Assembly: GCA_029251165.1 (NCBI GenBank)
Contig: JAQXDW010000142.1
Coordinates: 1 to 64,000 of the forward strand
DNA: 64,000 nt
DNA from: Myxococcota bacterium
GTDB taxonomy: Bacteria; Myxococcota_A; UBA796
Reading direction: 5' to 3'
Shown: piece by piece, positions 44,224 through 61,189 of the stretch
How positions within the stretch are numbered: the stretch's first letter is position 1
Layout of the letters: every line of letters begins with the position of its first letter
Program-made: the position numbers and the translations under genes
The notes under the pieces: generated by a model
Databases searched by the model: none
What the model was told of the DNA's origin: nothing
Seen by the model: the letters and a program-made list of their open reading frames with translations, nothing else

Positions 44224-46773
44224 TTACTCTCCTCCCTCGACCCGAAAGATCAGGTCTCCGACACGATAGATATCCCGAGGAGACGGTGACGTCGGATTGT
44301 CTTCGACCGCACGCCAGCGACTCCGCCGTCGGTCAAACACCTCCAGCCCCCCCCGGGCTTCCAGGATCACCCCACCACGGACCGCCCGAAGCACCGCTGC
44401 GGCATGGCGTACCCGACCGTTCACGCTGCCGTCTCCGTGGATCCCAAGGGCGGCATCCCGGTAGAAGCCCGCCCGAGCGCCCGGGCAGTCGAGCAGGCGG
44501 GTCGGCGTGGCCCGGCGGATGGCCTTGGGATCACCAGCAGTGGTGATGGTGGCGTCGGCCTCAAACCGACGCGGCCGGACGAAGCCGACGAGCGCAAGCA
44601 GGCCCAGCGCCGCGAGGACCGTGGGAACCAGCCAGAAGGCATGGCAGGCCAGCCAGCTCCTCCCCTCGACACGCCACGCCATCGGTACGGTGCGGACATC
44701 GCCAGCGAACGCCGGATCCAGCGGGGTGATGACCAGCGCAGCATCTTCCGGCGAGACCTCACCGCTGCAGGCCGGCACCTTGAGGCAGACCTCCAGGCTC
44801 GGAGCGTCCGGCGCGAGCGGACCGACGTCCTGGGGCAGTGACTTTGCACGCCGCCCCCGAATGGACAGCGCTGGGGTGCTCATGCACGCTCCGCCAGTCA
44901 TCGAGAGGGAGAACCGGTGGCCCTCGATGGAGCGGGAGCCTGCGAGCTCGAGGGTCTGACAGGTCGACAGCGCAGCCGCTCCGGCGGACAGGGCTCCGAA
45001 GTCCAGCCGCTCCGGCACCGCCAGCGACAGCGGCGCGCGGACCCGGACCACGTGCGGCGCGCTGGTGATCACCCGCTCCGGCCCCTGCACCGAGATCTGC
45101 CAGGTCTGCTCACCCACCACAGAGAGGTCCCGGCGGACCGCGTAGCGACCGTCTGCCGATGCGGGCAGCACGCCGACCTCCTGGCCATCCTCCAGCAGCA
45201 CGATGCGCCCCGAGGAGAGCATGTCGTCCGCGAGCTGGCGCGCCGCAGGATCGGATGGACGCTGGATGGAGAACGAGGCCACACAGGCCCGATCGGTGTA
45301 GCAGGTGTCCGGCAGCTCATCGGTAGAGAGGGCGAGACCAACCGGGCTGATGGTGAGGCGCGTGCTGTCTCCACGGCACACGCCGGGGGCGGTGGCCCAG
45401 ACCTCGACACTCAGCGGACTGGAGACCTCCGGAGGCCTCCAGGTTGTGCGCAGCCCACTCCCGGGCAGGGTGTCCGGCGACTTCCCGGGGAGGCGAACCG
45501 AGAACGCCACGCTGTTGCCGGCCGGTGCGGCGACCGGCTGGCGTGTGGTGGGATCAAGCAGCGCAGCAGTCAGCGTCGTCGGGGTGCCGCTGGCCAGCAC
45601 GCTGCCTCCGCTGGGGGCTGTGACCACCGCGAGGTAGTCGCAGCCCTGGGCGACGTCGAGGTTCAGAGAATCAGAGGTCTCCGAGACCAGCCGCTCGCCA
45701 TCCGCCAGCGCCATCGGATCGGGGGTAAATTGGATCGAGATCCCCGCTCCGGCAGGCAGCGGAAGCGCCCCGCGGATCCGACCATCAGGCCCCGCCTCTC
45801 CGCGAACATCAGTGACGCGGCCGTTGGAGTCGGTGATGTGAAACGTGCCGCCGGAGAGCCCCCGTGGGGTGCCGCTGTCATCGCGCAGTCCTGCGGTGAC
45901 GGTGATGGTCTCGCCAGAGGTGTAGGGACCAGGGGTGACATCCTCGATGCCCACCGTCAGCTCTCCTGCGCGATCACTCAGCGGCGCATAGGCTGAATCA
46001 TCGGTGGGAAACACCGTCGGTGCACAGGTCGAGACCCCAGCACCGACGACCGCAAATGGCTGGCGGCTGACCTTCTTGGTTGTCCCAGCATCCGGGTCAT
46101 AGCGGAAGACATCGGTCGTGGATCCCGGCCCAGCAAACAGCCAGAAGCTGCCCCCCCAGAATGCAAACGCAAAGTTGGAGGCATTGGGTGGATAGCTGAC
46201 GGCATCCAGCGGCTGCTGCGAGAGAATTCGAGCATTACGCGGATCAATCTCAGCGACAATATACGGCTGTCCCTCGAAGGCGCCAAACAGCCGTCCATCG
46301 CCGGTTCCGGTCAGCTCTGAGCGCGCCGAGATGCGATCATAGACCCCCACCGGAGTTGCCTGGAGCGGTGAGAACCCGATGGTGCCCAGCTGATAGCCGG
46401 TGCCGCCGAGGTAGCTGCTCGCCGAGATGAACAGCTGCTCGGCGCCGCCGTCCTGCATGTAGCCCATGCCAAATGAGGTGAACCCAGCCTGACCGGTTGC
46501 ATACCCGGTCGCATCGCACTGCCCCGTCTCGGTGTCGACCCGGAAGAGGTTGCCGTCGTTGAACACAACGTACGCGGTTCCGTCTCGGGCAACCGCCATC
46601 GAGTACGGGCTGGCGTAGCTCCGCGCAGGACAGGACAGCCGGCTGATCAGCTTGAAGGACAGGGACGGCGGATGGAACTGGTACAGCTCGTCGTGCGCGG
46701 TGACCACGTAGACATAGCGACCGGCTGCACAGTCCGCGTGTGCGGTCAGGGTCAGGCCGAGCAGTGCGAGCAT
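44224..46773 (-). CDS. Exported sensor-like protein: beta-propeller-like N-terminus, Ig-like region, TM, novel C-terminal cytoplasmic module
   Basis: Signal MLALLGLTLTAHA; TM WLVPTVLAALGLLALVGFV; C-terminal GARAGFYRDAALGIHGDGSVNGR...YRVGDLIFRVEGGE shared with 59513..61189. Confidence 0.75.
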   Translation of the reverse strand: MLALLGLTLTAHADCAAGRYVYVVTAHDELYQFHPPSLSFKLISRLSCPARSYASPYSMAVARDGTAYVVFNDGNLFRVDTETGQCDATGYATGQAGFTSFGMGYMQDGGAEQLFISASSYLGGTGYQLGTIGFSPLQATPVGVYDRISARSELTGTGDGRLFGAFEGQPYIVAEIDPRNARILSQQPLDAVSYPPNASNFAFAFWGGSFWLFAGPGSTTDVFRYDPDAGTTKKVSRQPFAVVGAGVSTCAPTVFPTDDSAYAPLSDRAGELTVGIEDVTPGPYTSGETITVTAGLRDDSGTPRGLSGGTFHITDSNGRVTDVRGEAGPDGRIRGALPLPAGAGISIQFTPDPMALADGERLVSETSDSLNLDVAQGCDYLAVVTAPSGGSVLASGTPTTLTAALLDPTTRQPVAAPAGNSVAFSVRLPGKSPDTLPGSGLRTTWRPPEVSSPLSVEVWATAPGVCRGDSTRLTISPVGLALSTDELPDTCYTDRACVASFSIQRPSDPAARQLADDMLSSGRIVLLEDGQEVGVLPASADGRYAVRRDLSVVGEQTWQISVQGPERVITSAPHVVRVRAPLSLAVPERLDFGALSAGAAALSTCQTLELAGSRSIEGHRFSLSMTGGACMSTPALSIRGRRAKSLPQDVGPLAPDAPSLEVCLKVPACSGEVSPEDAALVITPLDPAFAGDVRTVPMAWRVEGRSWLACHAFWLVPTVLAALGLLALVGFVRPRRFEADATITTAGDPKAIRRATPTRLLDCPGARAGFYRDAALGIHGDGSVNGRVRHAAAVLRAVRGGVILEARGGLEVFDRRRSRWRAVEDNPTSPSPRDIYRVGDLIFRVEGGE

Positions 46774-51539: not shown

Positions 51540-53429
51540 ATGCAGCCCCAGAACATCCTGCTTGTGGAAGATCGTTCAGCAGACGCCAGACTGCTCAGGC
51601 GAGCTTTGCGCGGTATCTGCGCAACGGTAATTCACACCCGCACACTCAGAGAAGCCATCAAGGTCGTACACGACTTTTCTTCTGAAAAAGCCAACTCAGA
51701 AGCGATTGATGTAATCCTGCTAAGCCTCAACCTCTCCGACACCACTGCCACAGAATCCATTCGACGAATAAGAAGCTTGGCTCTTCACATTCCGTGCATT
51801 GCGACAAGCAGTACGGCGGAGACTGAGGACGGCTTGAGTGCGGTAACGGAAGGCGCAGAAGACGTCCTCATCAAGAGCGAGATCACCCCTCGTCTCCTGG
51901 AGCGGTCGATCCGATACGCTATCGCACGCAACACACGCCTCCAGGCGGCACGAGAGACCGAAGCGAGCCTGCGCCGCGTTGTCGAGACACACCCGGATGC
52001 CATGCTGGTTGTCGGTAAAGACAACCTCATCAAGCTCGCCAATCCCGCGACAGCGAACCTCCTGGGACGCTCCGCCCACAAGCTGATCGGCAGCCATCCA
52101 CCCTTCCCGCTGGAGGAAGGGACCCCGACGCTCCTGGATCTCTCGGGCCTCAGCGGTGGACGCTCGGTCGAGATCGTCACGGCACGGACCACCTGGAAGG
52201 GGGAGACGGCCTGGCTGGCAGCCGTTCGTGACGTCTCCTACCGAAAGCGAGAGGAGCGCCTGCGGCGTCAACTCCAGCACACCGAGCGGCTCGCAGTGCT
52301 CGGACAATTCGCCGCAGGGGTCGCCCACGAGGTCAACAACCCAGCCACGGTGCTGATGACCAACCTCCAGCTCCTGCGCATGGAGATTCCCTCGCTCAAG
52401 GCTGCACTGGGGCACGATCCGGAGCTCGTTGGCGCGCTGCAGGAGTCCGAGGACATGCTCGCCGAGAGCTTGAGCGGAATCACCCGGATCACACAGCTCA
52501 CCCGATCGCTTCAGGGCTTCCTGGAGGCCAGCCGAAGCGAAGCTGCGCGGGTCGAGCTCTCCACGTTGATTGAGAGCGTCTGCTCTATGAGCCGCCACGA
52601 CATCCAGGCGGTTGCACAGCTTACGCTCGAGATAGAGGCACTCCCCAGCGTCATCGCCAGCCGTGATGCGCTCAGCCAAGCGCTGCTCAGTCTCATCCGC
52701 AATGCCACCCAGGCCATCCCTGTCGGGAACCCCGCTCAGAACACCATCACCATCACTGCATGCCAGTCCAACGGGCTGATCACCATCTCAGTGACGGACA
52801 CCGGCACCGGTATCCCCGGGGTGCTGCGCGACCGCATCTTCGAGCCGTTCTACACCACCCGCTCCCCAGGCAACGGCTCTGGGCTCGGGCTTCCACTGGC
52901 GCGCGACATCCTGCGCAGACACGGTGGAGACCTCAAGCTGAGCTCAAAGCCCGGAGAATTAACCTGCTTTGAGCTAAATCTTCCGGCAGACACACAGCTC
53001 AACGCCAACCCGGTCCAGCACACATCAGCACAGCGCCCCCAGGCAGGCCGGGTGCTGCTCATCGACGATGATCCGATGGTCCGGCAGACCCTCAGCCAGC
53101 AGCTTCTCCGCTCAGGGCTGGAGACCGCCATCGCAGCGGACGGCCTCGAGGCGATGGCGGTCCTCAGCCGCGACACCCGGTTCGATGTCATCCTCTGCGA
53201 CATGATGATGCCCGAGCTGGACGGCTGCGGCTTCTATGCAGCACTGCGGCTACAGCACCCCGACCTCTGCCAGCGGGTCTTGTTCTACAGCGGTGCAACG
53301 CTTCCGAGCCACCTCCACGCCTTCCAAGCCGTCGTGGACCGCCCGGTACTCCGCAAGCCTCTCTCCAGGCTCAAGCTGCTCAACGCTGTCCAAGAGCTGA
53401 TGCGAATGCGAGAGGCTGAGCCGAAGTAA
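51540..53429 (+). CDS. Hybrid histidine kinase (REC-PAS-HisKA-HATPase-REC)
   Basis: LVEDRSADARLLRRAL REC; PAS-like region; GQFAAGVAHEVNNPATVLMTNLQLL; DTGTGIPGVLRDRIFEPFYTTRSPGNGSGLGLPLARDIL; second REC LIDDDP...DVILCDMMMPELDG. Confidence 0.93.
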   Translation: MQPQNILLVEDRSADARLLRRALRGICATVIHTRTLREAIKVVHDFSSEKANSEAIDVILLSLNLSDTTATESIRRIRSLALHIPCIATSSTAETEDGLSAVTEGAEDVLIKSEITPRLLERSIRYAIARNTRLQAARETEASLRRVVETHPDAMLVVGKDNLIKLANPATANLLGRSAHKLIGSHPPFPLEEGTPTLLDLSGLSGGRSVEIVTARTTWKGETAWLAAVRDVSYRKREERLRRQLQHTERLAVLGQFAAGVAHEVNNPATVLMTNLQLLRMEIPSLKAALGHDPELVGALQESEDMLAESLSGITRITQLTRSLQGFLEASRSEAARVELSTLIESVCSMSRHDIQAVAQLTLEIEALPSVIASRDALSQALLSLIRNATQAIPVGNPAQNTITITACQSNGLITISVTDTGTGIPGVLRDRIFEPFYTTRSPGNGSGLGLPLARDILRRHGGDLKLSSKPGELTCFELNLPADTQLNANPVQHTSAQRPQAGRVLLIDDDPMVRQTLSQQLLRSGLETAIAADGLEAMAVLSRDTRFDVILCDMMMPELDGCGFYAALRLQHPDLCQRVLFYSGATLPSHLHAFQAVVDRPVLRKPLSRLKLLNAVQELMRMREAEPK

Positions 53430-53615
53430 AAACGAGAGCGCTGGCGGTCGACCCAAGCACCACCGCCCATCTTGTCATCTTCACGGTCACGGTTTCCTTC
53501 CCGCACAGTCTCAACGCTCCGCCTCCAAGAGACTCTAAAGAATAAACAGAGCGGCGTATTGTACTGATTTATTCTTACTAATTAAACGCAACATCTATTA
53601 AAACGCAGTGGGGAA

Positions 53616-54104
53616 GTGTACTGTCATATGACAGGAGGAGAGCTGACACGTCCCTACCGGATCCTGCTGGTCGAAGACCATCTACCAGACATCCTCCTCG
53701 TTCGGCGGGTGCTCAAGCCCAACGATGACGTCCAGCTGGTGGTGGTCCGAGATGGCATCACGGCGCTGGACTACCTCGACAAGCGCCCTCCCTATGAGTC
53801 AGCCTCGCGCCCCGACCTCATCCTCCTCGACCTCAACCTTCCCCGGAAAGATGGTCGAGAGGTGCTCATTGAGATCAAGGCGAACCCCGGCCTGCGACGA
53901 ATCCCAGTGCTCATCATCGGCTCCTCGGTCGAGCCGAGCAGCAGCGAGCTGAGCGGCTTCGAGTCTGACGACAACGGCCACTCCAGCGTCCTGCACAGGC
54001 CGCACCGCCTCGCGAGGCTGCAGACGCTGATCGAGTCGATCCGTGAGTTCTGGGTTGAGCCGGCGCTGTCTCCGTGGCACAGCAGCGAGGTCGCGGAGGC
54101 CTGA
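53616..54104 (+). CDS. Single-domain response regulator (Rcp1-like)
   Basis: YRILLVEDHLPDILLVRRVLK...PDLILLDLNLPRKDGREVLIEIKANPGLRRIPVLI; actual start may be CTG 53643 behind aggaggag. Confidence 0.88.
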   Translation: MYCHMTGGELTRPYRILLVEDHLPDILLVRRVLKPNDDVQLVVVRDGITALDYLDKRPPYESASRPDLILLDLNLPRKDGREVLIEIKANPGLRRIPVLIIGSSVEPSSSELSGFESDDNGHSSVLHRPHRLARLQTLIESIREFWVEPALSPWHSSEVAEA

Positions 54105-54121: not shown

Positions 54122-54535
54122 TCAGTCCAGGCGGAGGTACAGGCTACCGACCCGATAGCGTACTCCAGCCCGTGGGGCTTCACCGGGCGCCACCGGACGC
54201 CAGCGACGCCCGACCCGCTCGCTCTGCTCCAGCCCTGCCCCTCCACCCCACGCCAGACCGTCTCGCTGCTGCACGAGGATCACCGCAGCGTGCCCCGGTG
54301 AGGAGAGGGCATCTCCGGAGGCATCCAGACAGACTCGTGGCCTGCGCCCCCGCTGGAGGCTGGTGAGCGGCAGCCCCTTCGCGCTCCGCAGCCCCCGCTC
54401 GCTGCCCGCGATGGTGAGGGTCTGTCCGGCCTCGAAGTGCGTGCTCGGGCGAGCGAGCAGCAGCAGCAGGCCGGCGGTGAGCGTCAGCGCGCTCCCGCTC
54501 CAGGTCAGCCAGCAGAAGAGCGCAACACCGAGCAT
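54122..54535 (-). CDS. Small membrane protein carrying the shared C-terminal module
   Basis: MLGVALFCWLTWSGSALTLTAGLLLLLAR TM; AGQTLTIAGSERGLRSAKGLPL...RWRPVAPGEAPRAGVRYRVGSLYLRLD. Confidence 0.7.
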   Translation of the reverse strand: MLGVALFCWLTWSGSALTLTAGLLLLLARPSTHFEAGQTLTIAGSERGLRSAKGLPLTSLQRGRRPRVCLDASGDALSSPGHAAVILVQQRDGLAWGGGAGLEQSERVGRRWRPVAPGEAPRAGVRYRVGSLYLRLD

Positions 54536-54566: not shown

Positions 54567-55856
54567 GTGCTTGAGTCCGGCCAGATGCTCGGCAACTACG
54601 AGGTAATTGAAGAGATTGGTCAGGGCGGCTTCGCCTGGGTCTATCGCCTGGAGCACACCGTGCTCGGCAGCCAGCATGCCCTGAAGGTCCTGCGCGCTGA
54701 GCTGGTCGGAGACCCCCAGATCCGACATCGCTTCCTGAGCGAGGCGCGCATCACCGCCAATCTCCGACACCCCAACATCATCCGGGCCACCGACGCGATC
54801 GCGATCCCTGGGGTGGCCGGCATCGTGATGGACTTCATCGAGGGCGGCAGCCTGGAGGGGTACATCGCCGCAGCAACGGCTCCGGCACCGCCCGGGCGAA
54901 TCCGAGACGTCTTCCTCCCGGTGCTCGATGCCCTCCACTACGCCCACTGCGCAAAGATCATCCACCGCGACATCAAGCCCGCGAACATCCTCATGGAGAC
55001 CCTGCCGGATGGTCGTCTGCGCCCGATGCTGGTGGACTTTGGGGTCGCGCGCGTCCGGGGAGAGCTCGCCGCCAGGCACGCCCAGACCCAGATCGGAACC
55101 CGCATGGGGACTGTTGGCTACATGAGCCCCGAGCAGCTGGAGTCTGCCACCGCCGCCGATGTCCGCAGCGACATCTTCTCGCTGGGGGTGACCATGTTCG
55201 AGCTGGCGACCCTGACGCCGCCGTTCCAGGGCGCCACGCAGTTTGAGGTCATGAAGGCAATCACCAGCGGCAGCTACACCATGCCCGCGTCCCTGCGCCA
55301 GGCGGATCCGGTGCTGGCGCGGGTCATCACGCGAGCCCTGGAGACGCGCCCGGCCGATCGGTTCGACAGCTGCGCAGCGATGGCTGAGGCCCTCCGCACG
55401 CCCGCGCCGCCGCCGCCGCCAGTGCTCGCTCGGACGCCGCCGCCGGCATCACCCGACGCCCTCACGCCGCCGCCGCTGCCACCACCACCCGCCCCTGCTC
55501 CGCTCCCAGAGCTGCCACCCGACACCGCGCTCCACGTTCGCCCGCTCGCTTCGCCCACACGCGGCACGCTGACCTACCGTCCAGACACCGACGACGCGGA
55601 GGACATCCCGCTCTCTGGACAGGACATGATCATCGGCCGGGCTCGCGACTGCGACATCTGCCTGCCCCGCGACACCTGGGTCGCCCGACGACACTGCCGG
55701 ATCTTCTTCCGGGACGGTCAGTGGTGGGTGCGAGATCATGGAACCGCAAACGGCACCCTGGTGAACGGTCAGATGGTGCTCAAGCAGGCACTGCACGGCG
55801 GAGAGACCATCACGATCGGGCAGACCCCGTTCCGGTTTGTCGCTCAGGCGCAATAA
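54567..55856 (+). CDS. Serine/threonine protein kinase with C-terminal FHA domain
   Basis: GNYEVIEEIGQGGFAWVYRLEH, IHRDIKPANIL, VDFGVAR, GYMSPEQ; FHA IIGRARDCDICLPRDTWVARRHCRIFF. Confidence 0.95.
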   Translation: MLESGQMLGNYEVIEEIGQGGFAWVYRLEHTVLGSQHALKVLRAELVGDPQIRHRFLSEARITANLRHPNIIRATDAIAIPGVAGIVMDFIEGGSLEGYIAAATAPAPPGRIRDVFLPVLDALHYAHCAKIIHRDIKPANILMETLPDGRLRPMLVDFGVARVRGELAARHAQTQIGTRMGTVGYMSPEQLESATAADVRSDIFSLGVTMFELATLTPPFQGATQFEVMKAITSGSYTMPASLRQADPVLARVITRALETRPADRFDSCAAMAEALRTPAPPPPPVLARTPPPASPDALTPPPLPPPPAPAPLPELPPDTALHVRPLASPTRGTLTYRPDTDDAEDIPLSGQDMIIGRARDCDICLPRDTWVARRHCRIFFRDGQWWVRDHGTANGTLVNGQMVLKQALHGGETITIGQTPFRFVAQAQ

Positions 55857-55900
55857 GATCCCACACACTCCGAAAATGAAGGCACTGAAGGGAGCCCCAG

Positions 55901-56674
55901 ATGTCTTGCCATAGCTGCAAAAACGACAACCCTCCTGGAGTGAGCATCTGTGAATGGTGCGGGAGCACACTGGCTCCGCCCAAGCGCAAGACTCAGTCCG
56001 AGAATCGCGCCGCTGGAGGCGGGGCCGCCGTGGTCTCCGGTCCTGGCGAGAAGCGCCGCACCATGTACGAGCCCTCCACCCAGCCCAGCCGGCGCCCGCC
56101 GGTCGATGACTTCTTTGGCAATCCGCCGCCGAGTCGTCCGCCGCTGCGGGATCCTGAGGACCCATTTGCCCAGTCCGTTCGGCCAGCGGCAGCGGCAGCG
56201 CAGCCCACTCCCCAGGCCAGCGCACCGAGCCGCCCGGCACCACCGCCAGCGGCGCCCCATGCTGGCTGGGGAGCGGCAGCGCCTCAGCCGTCCGCGCCAA
56301 AGAACCGGACGATCATCGAGAATCCCGCCTCCCCTGCTGCCAGTGCCCAGCGCCGGATCCGCGGGGCGCTGTTCTGCTACACCAGTCCCGATGATCCCGG
56401 CAGCATCCTGCCGCTCCATGATGGCCGCAACTCGATGGGCCGCAACGACGATCGGGACGTGGTGCTGGCCGATGGGCGCATCAGCGGAGAGCACGGCTTT
56501 CTCTACGTCCGAGAGGATCGCCACACCTATGTCGACACCTCCAGCAACGGCAGCCGGGTCGACGGCCAGATCGTCTACGGCGAGCAGATCGAGGTTCGCT
56601 CGGGGACCGTGCTGGAGATCGGCGGAATGCGCCTGATTCTGGTCATCATCTCCCCGGATGCCGTGAGTCAATGA
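55901..56674 (+). CDS. FHA-domain protein with N-terminal zinc ribbon
   Basis: MSCHSCKNDNPPGVSICEWCGS; FHA-like NSMGRNDDRDVVLADGRISGEHGFLYV...SSNGSRVDG. Confidence 0.9.
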   Translation: MSCHSCKNDNPPGVSICEWCGSTLAPPKRKTQSENRAAGGGAAVVSGPGEKRRTMYEPSTQPSRRPPVDDFFGNPPPSRPPLRDPEDPFAQSVRPAAAAAQPTPQASAPSRPAPPPAAPHAGWGAAAPQPSAPKNRTIIENPASPAASAQRRIRGALFCYTSPDDPGSILPLHDGRNSMGRNDDRDVVLADGRISGEHGFLYVREDRHTYVDTSSNGSRVDGQIVYGEQIEVRSGTVLEIGGMRLILVIISPDAVSQ

Positions 56675-58530
56675 CCCCACTCCTGCTCCTCAGCCTGACT
56701 GCCGGCGCGGAGGGCCTCAATGCCACCCTCACCTTCGCCTCTCCAGCGGAGTCTGGGCACGGGCGCGTGCAGGTCGAGATCACCAGCCCCGAGATCGCTG
56801 CGGACCTCGGCTCGGCTCCCGGTCCCGACCGCTTCCGAGCAGTCGTCGGGCGCGGCGACGCACGCGTCGACCGCGTGCAGCACGTGGGCAGCAGCGGCGA
56901 GACGGTCCACACGGTCCTCGCCTTCGATCGGTCCGGCTCGTTCTCGGCTTACTGGGACGACGCCTTTGAGCTCGCCGGAGCGATGGCCGACGCCCTCCCG
57001 GCGGACGGCAGTCACACCGTCGAGGTGATGAGCTTCCACGGCAACCAGACCTTCCACGGAGCTGCCGCCACCGCCGCCGACCTCCGGACGCTGCTCGCAG
57101 CGGTCGAGGCCATGGGAACCCTGGGCCGAGCGTCGGAGACCTCGCTGATGAGCGCGGTCAAGGACGGTGCGCGCCGCGCCGCAGAGCAGCAGCCGACCAC
57201 CGGCGGCCGCCAGGTCATCCTGTTCTCAGACGCCGGCGAAGAGGGGGCCATCTTCACCCTCGACGAGACCATCGCTGCGGTCCGTGCACAGGGAACGGTC
57301 ATCCACCCTGTCGTGCTCAAGCAGGTCGCCGCCCCCGGCTCCAACAAGGCGGAGGCCTTCTCCAGGGCCAACGACCGCATGAAGAAGCTGGCGGAGGCCT
57401 CCGGCGGTCAGCACATCCACGCCCAGGAGCTCGCATCGGCGAAGCGGCTGATGGTGCAGCACGCCACGGTCAGCGAGCGCCTGTACTGGCTGGAGGTGCG
57501 CTACTGTGCCGTCCCGCAAGGCGAGATCCGGTTCAAGGACACCGTTCAGATCGAGGTGCTCCAGGGCAGCACGATCCCCGCCAAGACGGCCGCCACAGGG
57601 TTCCGCCAGCACGCCGCAGGCAGCGCGCTGCTGGCCTGTGCGGATCTCCCTCCGGCCGCGTCCAGCGCCGCCGCTGCGGATCTGGGTGCTGGGCAGGGCA
57701 CCGCTGGCACGACGGCCGAGCCCGGCTCCGCCTCCAGCCGGGGCTGGCTGTGGCCGACGCTGATCGGCGCGCTGCTGCTCATGCTGATGCTCGGGGGGCT
57801 GATCATGCTGGTGCTGCTCGCCAGCCGCAAGAAGAAGCCAGAGGAGCAGTCACCGGAGCCTCCTCCGCCCCCAACACCCGAGCCTGGTGCGGGCGCGGGA
57901 CCGGTCATCACCCCACGGCTCGAGAGCCCGATCGCTCAAGGAAGCGGCGCAGCGGCCCTGCACAACAGCACCGCCGAGCTCAGCGACGACCCCCTCGCGC
58001 TGCCCGCCCCGGACCGCAACCCGCTGGAGAAGCCACCAGTCGAGACCCGGCTGCGCATCGTCAGTGGTCCATCCGGGCTGGAGCCGTACTACCGCGTCAG
58101 CGGCTCGACCTTCACCATCGGCGGCGCCCCAACTGCGGATCTCTGCATCGACATTCCGCAGATCAGCAGCCACCACGCCACGATCAAGCTGTTCAAGCTG
58201 GGCACGGTCTACATCACCGACCACTCTCTCAACGGGACCTACCTCGATGGCCGGCGCCTGAAGAAGGGAGAGCGAACGCAGGTGAGCCCTGGGCAGCGGA
58301 TCGGACTCAGCCAGCAGCTCATCGTGGAGCTGTGGCAGCCCGACACCGATCCCGCACCGCCCCCGACGACGCCAGCAGTACCGCCCCCGCCGCCTCGAAA
58401 GAGTCGCCAAAAGACGGTCTATGGCCCCCTCGCAAGCGCCCCGCCGCCGGTCTCTGCGTCCCCGGCTCCGCCGAAGCGCTCCAAGTCAAAGACCATCATT
58501 CAACCCCTCCGAAAGGATGACGAGTCATGA
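56671..58530 (+). CDS. VWA-like extracytoplasmic domain, TM, cytoplasmic FHA domain protein
   Basis: Signal, FDRSGSFSAYWDDAFELA VWA-like, TM LWPTLIGALLLMLMLGGLIMLVLLA, FHA FTIGGAPTADLCIDIPQISSHHATI...DHSLNGTYLDG. Confidence 0.88.
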   Translation: MTPLLLLSLTAGAEGLNATLTFASPAESGHGRVQVEITSPEIAADLGSAPGPDRFRAVVGRGDARVDRVQHVGSSGETVHTVLAFDRSGSFSAYWDDAFELAGAMADALPADGSHTVEVMSFHGNQTFHGAAATAADLRTLLAAVEAMGTLGRASETSLMSAVKDGARRAAEQQPTTGGRQVILFSDAGEEGAIFTLDETIAAVRAQGTVIHPVVLKQVAAPGSNKAEAFSRANDRMKKLAEASGGQHIHAQELASAKRLMVQHATVSERLYWLEVRYCAVPQGEIRFKDTVQIEVLQGSTIPAKTAATGFRQHAAGSALLACADLPPAASSAAAADLGAGQGTAGTTAEPGSASSRGWLWPTLIGALLLMLMLGGLIMLVLLASRKKKPEEQSPEPPPPPTPEPGAGAGPVITPRLESPIAQGSGAAALHNSTAELSDDPLALPAPDRNPLEKPPVETRLRIVSGPSGLEPYYRVSGSTFTIGGAPTADLCIDIPQISSHHATIKLFKLGTVYITDHSLNGTYLDGRRLKKGERTQVSPGQRIGLSQQLIVELWQPDTDPAPPPTTPAVPPPPPRKSRQKTVYGPLASAPPPVSASPAPPKRSKSKTIIQPLRKDDES

Positions 58531-59516
58531 CCCCGCTGTACATTCATGGACTCAAGGACGTCGGACAGCAGCGCGAGCGGAACGAAGACGACTACCGGAT
58601 CGAGCCGCGCGGTGCCGAGGGCTGGCTGCTGGTGGTCTGCGATGGCATGGGCGGCCACGGCGGCGGCCACATCGCCAGCGCGGTCGCCTGCGAGACGATC
58701 ACCGATCAGCTCCCGGCCGCACCGCTCCCCGAGCCGCCCCGAGACATCTACGAGTCCCTCCGGACCGCCAACATCGCGGTGCACCGACACGCCGAGACCT
58801 CCGCAGATCCGGCGATGGGCACCACCGCCGTCATTGCCTGGATCGAGGGCACGCGCTGCTGGAGTGGCTGGGTGGGTGACAGTCGACTCTACCGCTTCCG
58901 AGCAGGGAAGATCATGGACCAGACCGTCGATCACACGCGGGTTCAGGCCATGGTCGAGCTGGGCATCCTCTCCGAAAAGCAAGCCAAGAACCACCCCGAT
59001 GCCCACATCCTCACTCAAGCCATCGGAGGCGGAGAGCGCTCTGACGTCAAGCCCTCGGTCTGGAACGAGCCGATGGATCTGGAGCCTGGCGATGTCCTGC
59101 TGATGTGCTCCGATGGCCTGTACGACCTCATCCGGGATGAGGAGCTGTACCCGATGATCTCGGGAAAGCACTACCAAGCGGCGGTCGAGACGCTGGTCGC
59201 GGAGGCCAACCGCCGCGGCGGGGTGGACAACATCACCGTCGTGGTCTGCGTGGTCGGCCAGCCCGATGTCCCAGCAGCCGAGCCCCTCCGACGACGCCCC
59301 CCGATCCTGCCGATTCTCGCTGCGCTGCTCGCGCTGGGGCTGGGGGTCTTTCTGGTGGTGGGACTTGCCAGCGGTGCGGGCTTCCTGCTGACCCGTCAGG
59401 TCGCCGAGTCCGTCGAGCTTGCCGACACCTCCACCCCAGAGGTCACCCCTGACGCCACGCCAGAGCGCGCATCGGAGCCTGCCATCGCGCCCGCTCCGGA
59501 GGAGCCCGCAGGTTGA
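58527..59516 (+). CDS. PP2C-family protein serine/threonine phosphatase with C-terminal TM
   Basis: QQRERNEDDYRIE, VVCDGMGGHGGGHIAS, WVGDSRLYRFR, LMCSDGLYDLI, GGVDNITVVV. Confidence 0.95.
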   Translation: MTPLYIHGLKDVGQQRERNEDDYRIEPRGAEGWLLVVCDGMGGHGGGHIASAVACETITDQLPAAPLPEPPRDIYESLRTANIAVHRHAETSADPAMGTTAVIAWIEGTRCWSGWVGDSRLYRFRAGKIMDQTVDHTRVQAMVELGILSEKQAKNHPDAHILTQAIGGGERSDVKPSVWNEPMDLEPGDVLLMCSDGLYDLIRDEELYPMISGKHYQAAVETLVAEANRRGGVDNITVVVCVVGQPDVPAAEPLRRRPPILPILAALLALGLGVFLVVGLASGAGFLLTRQVAESVELADTSTPEVTPDATPERASEPAIAPAPEEPAG

Positions 59517-61189
59517 TCCTCGCCCTGCTCGCTGCTGCACACGCCCGCTGTGCGGATCTGCCCGTCCGCAGCGCGCTGACCTGCTCGTCGGTCATCCAGG
59601 ATGAGCTGACCGACGAGACCCCGAACCGACTGACCGGTCCTTATGTCTGCCCAAAGGAGCTGCATCAGCGCGGCGGGGAGCACATCTACTCGTTCCGCTG
59701 TCAGCAGAGTGGCCCGGTCAACCTGCTGATCTCCGACCTGGAGTGTGACCTCGACATCTACGTCCTCGACGACACCTGCGACACCCGGCGGGGATGCGTG
59801 GGCGAGTCGGTCGCGGCCAGCAATGCCTCCGATCGGGTCCGGTTCGACTGCCGAGCAGGACAGCAGTACTTCATCGCAATCGAGGGCTACGGCTTCCAGG
59901 GCTTCATCGGACGGTGTGGCAGACGCAACAGCAGCGGGCGCTACACCCTGCAGTTCGACGTCTCGGATGTCACCGGTGGCTGCCAGGAGCACTGCAGCGA
60001 TGGTGCAGACAACGACAACGACGGCCAGATTGACTGCGACGACACGGACTGCACCTCTGAGGAGAGCTGCCTGATGCTCTCCGGGCTGACGCTCGACACC
60101 TCCGGCCTCCCGACCTCCTGCGCGGTCGGAGCAGACTGCGCCGGTACCGTGGCGCTGCGGCTTCCTGATGGCCCCCAGAAGGTCCGCTGGCAGGCAGCAC
60201 TCGCCGATCCGGCCACCGCGATCACCCTCAACGGCGTGCCGATGCCGCGCCAGAGTGGCGCGCACTACACCGCCCGACGCTCGGGCCAGAACCCCACCAC
60301 CGAGACCTGGACGATTGCGGTCACCCCCGCAGACGGGGAGGCGATCACTGCGCTGCACACGGTCTCGTACTTCTCGCCGCTCCGACTCGTCGTCCCGCAG
60401 CAGCTCGACTTCGGCACCCTACCGGCAGGCTCCAGCACCTTCGGTCCACAGCACTGTCAGACACTGGATCTCTCTGCCTCACAGAACCTCGATCAGCACC
60501 TCTTTGACCTCACCTTCGGCGAGCCTGACGGCGGCTGCGAGGCCGAGCCGGTGCTCCGTGCCGGCTCCCAGCGGCGGCCCCGACCCAGCCGCCTTCCGCT
60601 GGAGGGAATTGCGCTGTCAGAGACCCTCGAGCTGTGCCTCAGCGTCCCGGCCTGTGCAGGAGACTCCGGCAGCGGCGCCAGCCTGCACATCACACCACGG
60701 ACCGCAGCCTATGCCGATCAGGCTGCCACGGTCACGCTGGACTGGACCGTCACAGAGCGCTCCTGGCTGTCGTGCAACTGGTGGTGGCTGGCGATCCTGA
60801 GCAGCATCGCCTTCACCCTCTGGGTGATCGCAGGCTTCATCCGCCCGCATCGATTTGCCCGAGAGGCCGGCATCCAGATCGCCGGCTCAGAGAAGGGACT
60901 GCGCCGAGCGGCCCCCCAGCTCCTCCGAGAGTTTCGCGGTGCGCGCGCGGGCTTCTACCGAGACGCCGCGCTGGGTGTGCACGCCGATGGCAGCGTCAAC
61001 GGACGCCTCAAGGGCAGCATCGTCCAGCTCCACGCCACCCGCCAGGGCGTTGTCTTGAAGGGTGCGGTGGAGCTTCAGGACCGCCGGACCCGTCGTTGGG
61101 CCACTCCCGAAGACCTCATCGAGGGGCACCTCCCCTCTCCCGCCGCGACCTATCGCGCAGGAGATCTTTGGTTCAAGGTCGAAGTTTAG
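59513..61189 (+). CDS. Exported sensor-like protein with Asp/Cys-rich motif, TM and shared C-terminal cytoplasmic module
   Basis: CSDGADNDNDGQIDCDDTDC; TM WWWLAILSSIAFTLWVIAGFI; C-terminal GARAGFYRDAALGVHADGSVNGR...YRAGDLWFKVEV. Confidence 0.8.
   Translation: MILALLAAAHARCADLPVRSALTCSSVIQDELTDETPNRLTGPYVCPKELHQRGGEHIYSFRCQQSGPVNLLISDLECDLDIYVLDDTCDTRRGCVGESVAASNASDRVRFDCRAGQQYFIAIEGYGFQGFIGRCGRRNSSGRYTLQFDVSDVTGGCQEHCSDGADNDNDGQIDCDDTDCTSEESCLMLSGLTLDTSGLPTSCAVGADCAGTVALRLPDGPQKVRWQAALADPATAITLNGVPMPRQSGAHYTARRSGQNPTTETWTIAVTPADGEAITALHTVSYFSPLRLVVPQQLDFGTLPAGSSTFGPQHCQTLDLSASQNLDQHLFDLTFGEPDGGCEAEPVLRAGSQRRPRPSRLPLEGIALSETLELCLSVPACAGDSGSGASLHITPRTAAYADQAATVTLDWTVTERSWLSCNWWWLAILSSIAFTLWVIAGFIRPHRFAREAGIQIAGSEKGLRRAAPQLLREFRGARAGFYRDAALGVHADGSVNGRLKGSIVQLHATRQGVVLKGAVELQDRRTRRWATPEDLIEGHLPSPAATYRAGDLWFKVEV

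Follow-up and report, generated by a model that had tools for sequence, protein, structure and literature searches.

The window analysed here, a 64,000-nucleotide stretch of a Myxococcota draft genome (bases 1-64000 of contig C101), carries a run of kinase, FHA and phosphatase genes that ends in the gene for membrane protein A, as well as two further genes, B and C, whose products bear the same kind of C-terminal tail, called the module below (Table 1). From N- to C-terminus, A comprises a signal-peptide-like N-terminus, a weak PPC-like region, an acidic disulfide repeat, an Ig-like region, a transmembrane (TM) helix and the module; its TTG start overlaps the stop codon of the PP2C gene. Gene B is located 8 kb upstream of the operon; its product combines a weak propeller-like (Kelch) N-terminal part with an Ig-like region, a TM helix and the module. 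Within the regions 59513-60100 and 44227-46000, A and B differ in that their N-terminal ectodomains are unrelated, whereas the TM-tail chassis is common to both. Gene C is divergent from the Ser/Thr kinase gene, and its codon-position base composition resembles that of the neighbouring genes. Between B and C, beside the Ser/Thr kinase operon, positions 51540-54104 encode a hybrid histidine kinase (PAS, HisKA, HATPase and two receiver domains) and a separate response-regulator-like protein.

Table 1. Module proteins and operon genes in the window (positions count from the first nucleotide of the window).
Feature	Position	Strand	Remarks
Gene B	44224..46773	-	849-aa membrane protein
Module in B	44227..44577	-	
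TM helix of B, directly before the module	44578..44643	-	from sequence
Gene C	54122..54535	-	small protein: hydrophobic segment and degenerate module, without ectodomain
Degenerate module in C, GFYR motif gone	54125..54451	-	own-genome-free profile
Ser/Thr protein kinase, C-terminal FHA	54567..55856	+	Pfam Pkinase 2.8e-44, FHA 5.6e-18
Zinc-ribbon-like and FHA protein	55901..56674	+	Pfam FHA 2.6e-9; zinc ribbon under cut-off
vWA-TM-FHA protein	56671..58530	+	Pfam FHA 3.3e-14; vWA just under cut-off
PP2C-type phosphatase, C-terminal TM segment	58527..59516	+	Pfam PP2C_2 2e-15
Gene A	59513..61189	+	558-aa membrane protein
Periplasmic region of A common to B (Ig-like, LDFG motif)	60080..60775	+	
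TM helix of A, directly before the module	60776..60841	+	WWWLAILSSIAFTLWVIAGFI
Module in A	60842..61186	+	115 aa, RPHRF to C-terminus

Homology and history of the tails

A preliminary description of the window had singled out comparable C-termini on three membrane proteins and read them as a novel cytoplasmic module. All three C-termini are present, those of 44224..46773 and 54122..54535 on the minus strand, and the span given for A (60844-61189) agrees almost exactly with the module, in which RPHRF starts at 60842. The common module is borne out by a hidden Markov model (HMM) built from 59 sequences, all from other genomes, which scores A, B and C at 184.3, 166.9 and 72.2 bits; the best of 1000 shuffled versions of C reached 4.9 bits with the same model, so C belongs to the module family despite its missing GFYR. 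As the description had also held, a TM segment comes before every tail: one hydrophobic segment immediately precedes it in A, B and C. Both the homology of the tails and this one-TM architecture are established computationally. The cytoplasmic side is predicted; cysteine is depleted 3.4-fold in the tail relative to the 300 aa before it, which fits a cytoplasmic tail and a periplasmic N-terminal part.

The homology of a three-copy tail module holds, but not the extent first assigned to it. A and B are 39% identical over 391 aa (pairwise E 4e-63) in an alignment that begins about 240 aa before the TM helix, so their common part, about 370 aa overall, exceeds the tail: it runs from the Ig-like region in the periplasm through the TM helix and takes in the tail. 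In C, the similarity is confined to the TM segment and the tail and is weak pairwise (E 0.001-0.007 in a database of 3). A fourth strong copy lies outside the window, at positions 67406-69439 of the same contig (C101), in a protein that begins with a vWA-like domain; no fifth copy was found in the 8.0-Mb draft genome. The module is 115-125 aa long and carries the motif GFYRxA.

In a tree of 32 proteins, Ig-type and vWA-type groups separate with a support of 100/98. A and B are sisters (93/86) within the Ig-type group, the fourth copy falls within the vWA-type group, and C, on a long branch, groups loosely with the latter. As judged from these sequences, the two paralogue types are ancient: the duplication behind their split is old, and that of A and B is confined to the source lineage in this sample. 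The sister pair on one contig, together with the degenerate C, would suit an ordinary local duplication in which the copies have no common role and the tail is a passive membrane-anchor appendix. We consider this very improbable. It is already disfavoured by deep conservation, given the age of the two-type split, the strong motif and operon context kept across Myxococcota and the compact fold predicted with confidence (see below).

No name attaches to the module in Pfam, NCBIfam, PADLOC or the PDB sequences, so that the preliminary statement that no family could be recognised stands, with no match to a named domain in these searches. Pfam FHA gave no match in any of 45 module members, and comparison of the module with FHA, PP2C, vWA, kinase and Ig profiles by hhalign gave nothing significant. 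Herpes_pp85, ADAMTS_CR_3 and Kelch were rejected as its family, each resting on weak Pfam matches in only 1-3 of the 45 members; Kelch, BurrH and tRNA ligase from the PDB sequence search had low scores only and were taken as chance. A reading as a defence system was likewise set aside, the PADLOC matches on the kinase being to generic kinase models. In the literature searched, we found no paper that describes the module (for PMC2875224, as judged from its main text). Its alignment can serve as the seed for a new protein family.

Predicted fold and conserved residues

The AlphaFold model of the A module, computed from a 45-row alignment, is mostly beta (pLDDT 93.3, pTM 0.84), and that of a module about 25% identical to it, L121, has a pLDDT of 96.1 and a pTM of 0.88; the two share alignment rows and are not fully independent. 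All 50 matches listed by Foldseek for the A module against the PDB are FHA-domain proteins or YscD/PscD-type domains of type III secretion systems (T3SS), with a best E of 0.068 and a probability of 0.91 among the matches listed. The list of 50 for L121 is made up almost entirely of FHA matches, and the few others include SMAD, which falls in the same fold class; among the matches listed, the best E is 0.023, the probability reaches 1.0 and the highest TM-scores are 0.56 (query) and 0.62 (target). Across both models, no match has an E of 0.001 or below and TM-scores lie at 0.4-0.6, and the module profile, compared by hhalign with the FHA domains of the operon itself, returned a probability of 1%. 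A divergent FHA-type beta-sandwich is a well-supported prediction for the fold, homology to FHA not being proven, and the question raised in the preliminary description, FHA-like or Ig-like, is answered in favour of the former by the PDB structures retrieved.

The best-conserved residues are P..F just after the TM segment, GFYRxA, an alanine in the LxA strand and a glycine near the end. The phosphothreonine set of FHA domains (GR, SxxH, NG) is not conserved in the module alignment; GFYRxA is conserved instead. In one clade (the modules of L112, L114, L115, L118, L120, L086 and L034), SxxH-like tetrads stand ahead of a strand, as SQGH, SKSH or SSPH, and as SQGY in L118. They are possibly a relic of the FHA phosphothreonine site; forced global alignments of module and FHA are unreliable, so we claim no residue register to FHA, and the alignment does not decide on the relic.

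The closest working precedent for the module, by analogy, is the cytoplasmic domain of PrgH/YscD, which has an FHA fold with poorly conserved phosphothreonine residues that can be mutated without effect on secretion, and whose deletion alters assembly (PMC3635987). PrgH/YscD, too, spans the membrane once, and its FHA domain is degenerate and lacks a conserved phosphothreonine site (PMC3635987); the predicted beta-sandwich fold is common to the module, FHA (PF00498) and YscD/PrgH (PF16697). In contrast to these families, the module is not detected by their sequence, its chain order is opposite (ectodomain first, tail last) and its machinery is different; its neighbours are kinase, FHA, PP2C and tubulin genes, unlike those of the YscD/PrgH inner-ring protein, which belongs to a T3SS locus.

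The module and the FtsZl1 operon in Myxococcota

About 1.1 kb beyond the fourth module copy lies the single Tubulin_2 (PF13809, FtsZl1) gene of the source genome (C101:70604-71647, E 9e-59). A search for relatives in genome contigs with A and B alone as seeds gave nothing; seeding it with a tubulin alignment instead recovered relatives in GTDB genomes, all of them Myxococcota, namely Archangium lansinium (Archangium lansingense in the taxonomy), Vitiosangium, Archangium violaceum and Enhygromyxa salina as well as many metagenome-assembled genomes (MAGs). Iterated searches yielded 63 distinct modules. In a survey of 379 Myxococcota genomes with the 45-row profile (module threshold E < 1e-10), the module occurs in at least 39, and Tubulin_2 in 36 of these 39 compared with 83 of all 379 (hypergeometric P 7e-24, a value that overstates independence because the genomes are related). 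The survey scored about 11 candidates per genome, and its module counts are therefore lower bounds; a second search of 30 Tubulin_2-positive, module-negative genomes, in which as many as 150 candidates per genome were scored, brought in just two borderline matches, both of which sit shortly upstream of the tubulin. The nearest module and Tubulin_2 gene on one contig are within 3 kb of each other in 24 genomes and within 25 kb in 31. Three module genomes have no Tubulin_2 match, and in five the two lie on different contigs or far apart; draft assemblies can explain most of these unlinked genomes, but not G092, where the pair is 3 Mb apart on one contig. Among 32 genomes searched, the 27 FtsZl1 genomes from outside Myxococcota all lacked the module; a plasmid search for it was empty. 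The module is spread through Myxococcota and not local to the window.

In the relatives, the gene order varies around a common sequence of zinc-ribbon-FHA, vWA-TM-FHA and PP2C-TM proteins, one or two Ig-TM-module proteins, a vWA-Ig-TM-module protein, FtsZl1 and AFT, the gene that follows FtsZl1, with kinases at either end of the loci. The window matches this order from 54567 to 61189 (kinase-FHA, zinc-ribbon-FHA, vWA-TM-FHA, PP2C, A), and the operon linkage of the module is a plain result of the comparison. The tie to a kinase/FHA island proposed for two of the proteins holds up, since in relatives the module genes share an operon with genes for FHA proteins and PP2C; the constant neighbour is FtsZl1/Tubulin_2, whose gene lies right outside the window, where the earlier reading could not see it. 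Up to three module proteins occur per locus, with both paralogue types together in the best-preserved loci, and 21 of the 39 module genomes have a single module protein. The vWA domains of the fourth copy and of 56671-58530 are slightly under the Pfam cut-off here and above it in relatives, and their first MIDAS residues read DNSCS or DRSGS. In the source genome, A is set apart from the vWA copy and the tubulin by about 6 kb of unrelated genes (C101:61190-67405, to L007 6406), which split the operon; this stretch, absent here in relatives, encodes two Asp-Thr-repeat lipoproteins, a PPDK-N-domain protein and a calcineurin-like phosphoesterase.

AFT (L007:12828-15131, equal to C101:73827-76130) is without a Pfam family and is kept after FtsZl1 in Myxococcota. 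One region of it is tubulin-like but degenerate (hhalign 95.6%, E 1e-8, against 0.1% for kinase and PP2C controls), and it also has TM helices; it therefore looks like a membrane-anchored tubulin-like protein that may be a partner of FtsZl1. Several FtsZl1 loci of Myxococcota have no clear module and yet keep a vWA-TM-tail protein just upstream of the tubulin. The divergent tails of L182-L186 join the family on iteration (E 1e-15 to 1e-19 after inclusion), and the tail encoded at L198:5856-7778 resembles a degenerate FHA domain (hhalign 56%). This suggests that a vWA-TM-tail protein next to FtsZl1 is an arrangement general to the phylum.

A putative docking tail

In the papers found, FtsZl1, a branch of the tubulin superfamily with a wide distribution, is covered by genomic predictions only; a survey of FtsZ and tubulin proteins left the Tubulin_2 group aside as too divergent (PMC9871819). 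Makarova and Koonin (2010, PMC2875224) predicted that FtsZl1 and its vWA, kinase, GTPase and OmpA partners form a membrane-remodelling machine, and described vWA partners fused to uncharacterised domains. With FtsZl1 as its constant neighbour, the module belongs to this machinery. The FtsZl1 gene, a vWA membrane protein and Ser/Thr kinases recur here, whereas the tail, its fold and its repetition on paralogues with different ectodomains are left undefined in the text of that paper considered here, which mentions neither FHA nor a phosphatase. P-loop GTPases and OmpA-type proteins, frequent but not universal in FtsZl1 operons, were not recognised among the neighbours scanned here. What is new relative to the known outline of the FtsZl1 system is the module, the fact that it is used repeatedly, and the presence of an FHA/PP2C layer in the Myxococcota operon.

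Based on these observations, we propose that the module is an FHA-fold, C-terminal cytoplasmic docking tail of single-pass inner-membrane proteins in the Myxococcota FtsZl1 (Tubulin_2) system, a reading to which we give an even chance. The tail is probably a plug that links outside sensors to the tubulin machinery. In the hypothetical scenario, (i) the tail would place interchangeable periplasmic parts (vWA, Ig or propeller-like) on one cytosolic platform; (ii) this platform would consist of FtsZl1, the membrane-anchored tubulin-like partner and the ordinary FHA proteins of the operon; (iii) the operon's Ser/Thr kinase and PP2C phosphatase would switch its assembly; and (iv) the ordinary FHA domains would read the phosphorylation. 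Given the lack of conservation at the phosphothreonine-binding residues, the tail itself would most likely be a phospho-independent scaffold, like the cytoplasmic domain of PrgH/YscD. The make-up of the operon suggests a transmembrane assembly under the control of phosphorylation. More tentatively, and with a rather low probability, several receptors that differ in their periplasmic domains may have in common a tail derived from FHA and independent of phosphate, which would attach directly to a tubulin-like filament and to a tubulin partner tethered in the membrane; signals from outside and kinase/phosphatase control would then together govern cytoskeletal assembly.

Two other roles for the tail draw on the same features. 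It might be a divergent FHA phospho-reader with a changed pocket that recognises phosphothreonine on the kinase or on some other product of the operon, in which case phosphorylation would directly switch membrane recruitment. The kinase, PP2C and ordinary FHA proteins of the operon, the FHA-like predicted fold, the almost invariant arginine of GFYR and the SxxH-like tetrads of one clade speak for such a reader; the GR, SxxH and NG set is nevertheless not conserved across the family, the alignment of module and FHA is unreliable, and C is without the motif altogether, all of which makes this reading unlikely in our view. It is also doubtful that the tail mainly oligomerises Ig-type and vWA-type proteins into a mixed membrane ring or cluster without contact to FtsZl1. 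The presence of up to three module proteins per locus, with both types side by side in the best-preserved ones, would fit such clusters, and some FHA-fold domains do act in rings (PrgH, PMC3635987), yet the lone module proteins of 21 genomes would need to self-assemble, and the constant neighbour is a tubulin gene.

With respect to the proposed docking tail, other systems offer partial parallels. GAP1-N2 systems, reported for the most part in Actinobacteria, Firmicutes, Planctomycetes, Verrucomicrobia and Chloroflexi, combine tubulin and vWA, or kinase, PP2C and vWA, around a GTPase with zinc ribbons and GAP1 (PMC7159879). A tubulin-like protein, an extracellular vWA domain on a membrane protein, a kinase and PP2C occur in related combinations in both, but neither GTPase nor GAP1 was recognised in a general scan of the neighbours here. 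The regulatory logic resembles that of PpkA and Fha in type VI secretion (T6SS), where a threonine-phosphorylation pathway (PpkA, PppA, Fha; PMC3953482) has a kinase/FHA switch and PP2C controlling the assembly of an inner-membrane complex; here, in contrast, the neighbouring assembly is tubulin-like, with no T6SS gene recognised in the operon. A recurring membrane-to-cytosol connector with a confidently predicted fold supplies defined proteins and a small set of partners for testing; the conserved operon is present in cultured Archangium, and module and tubulin also occur in Vitiosangium and Enhygromyxa.
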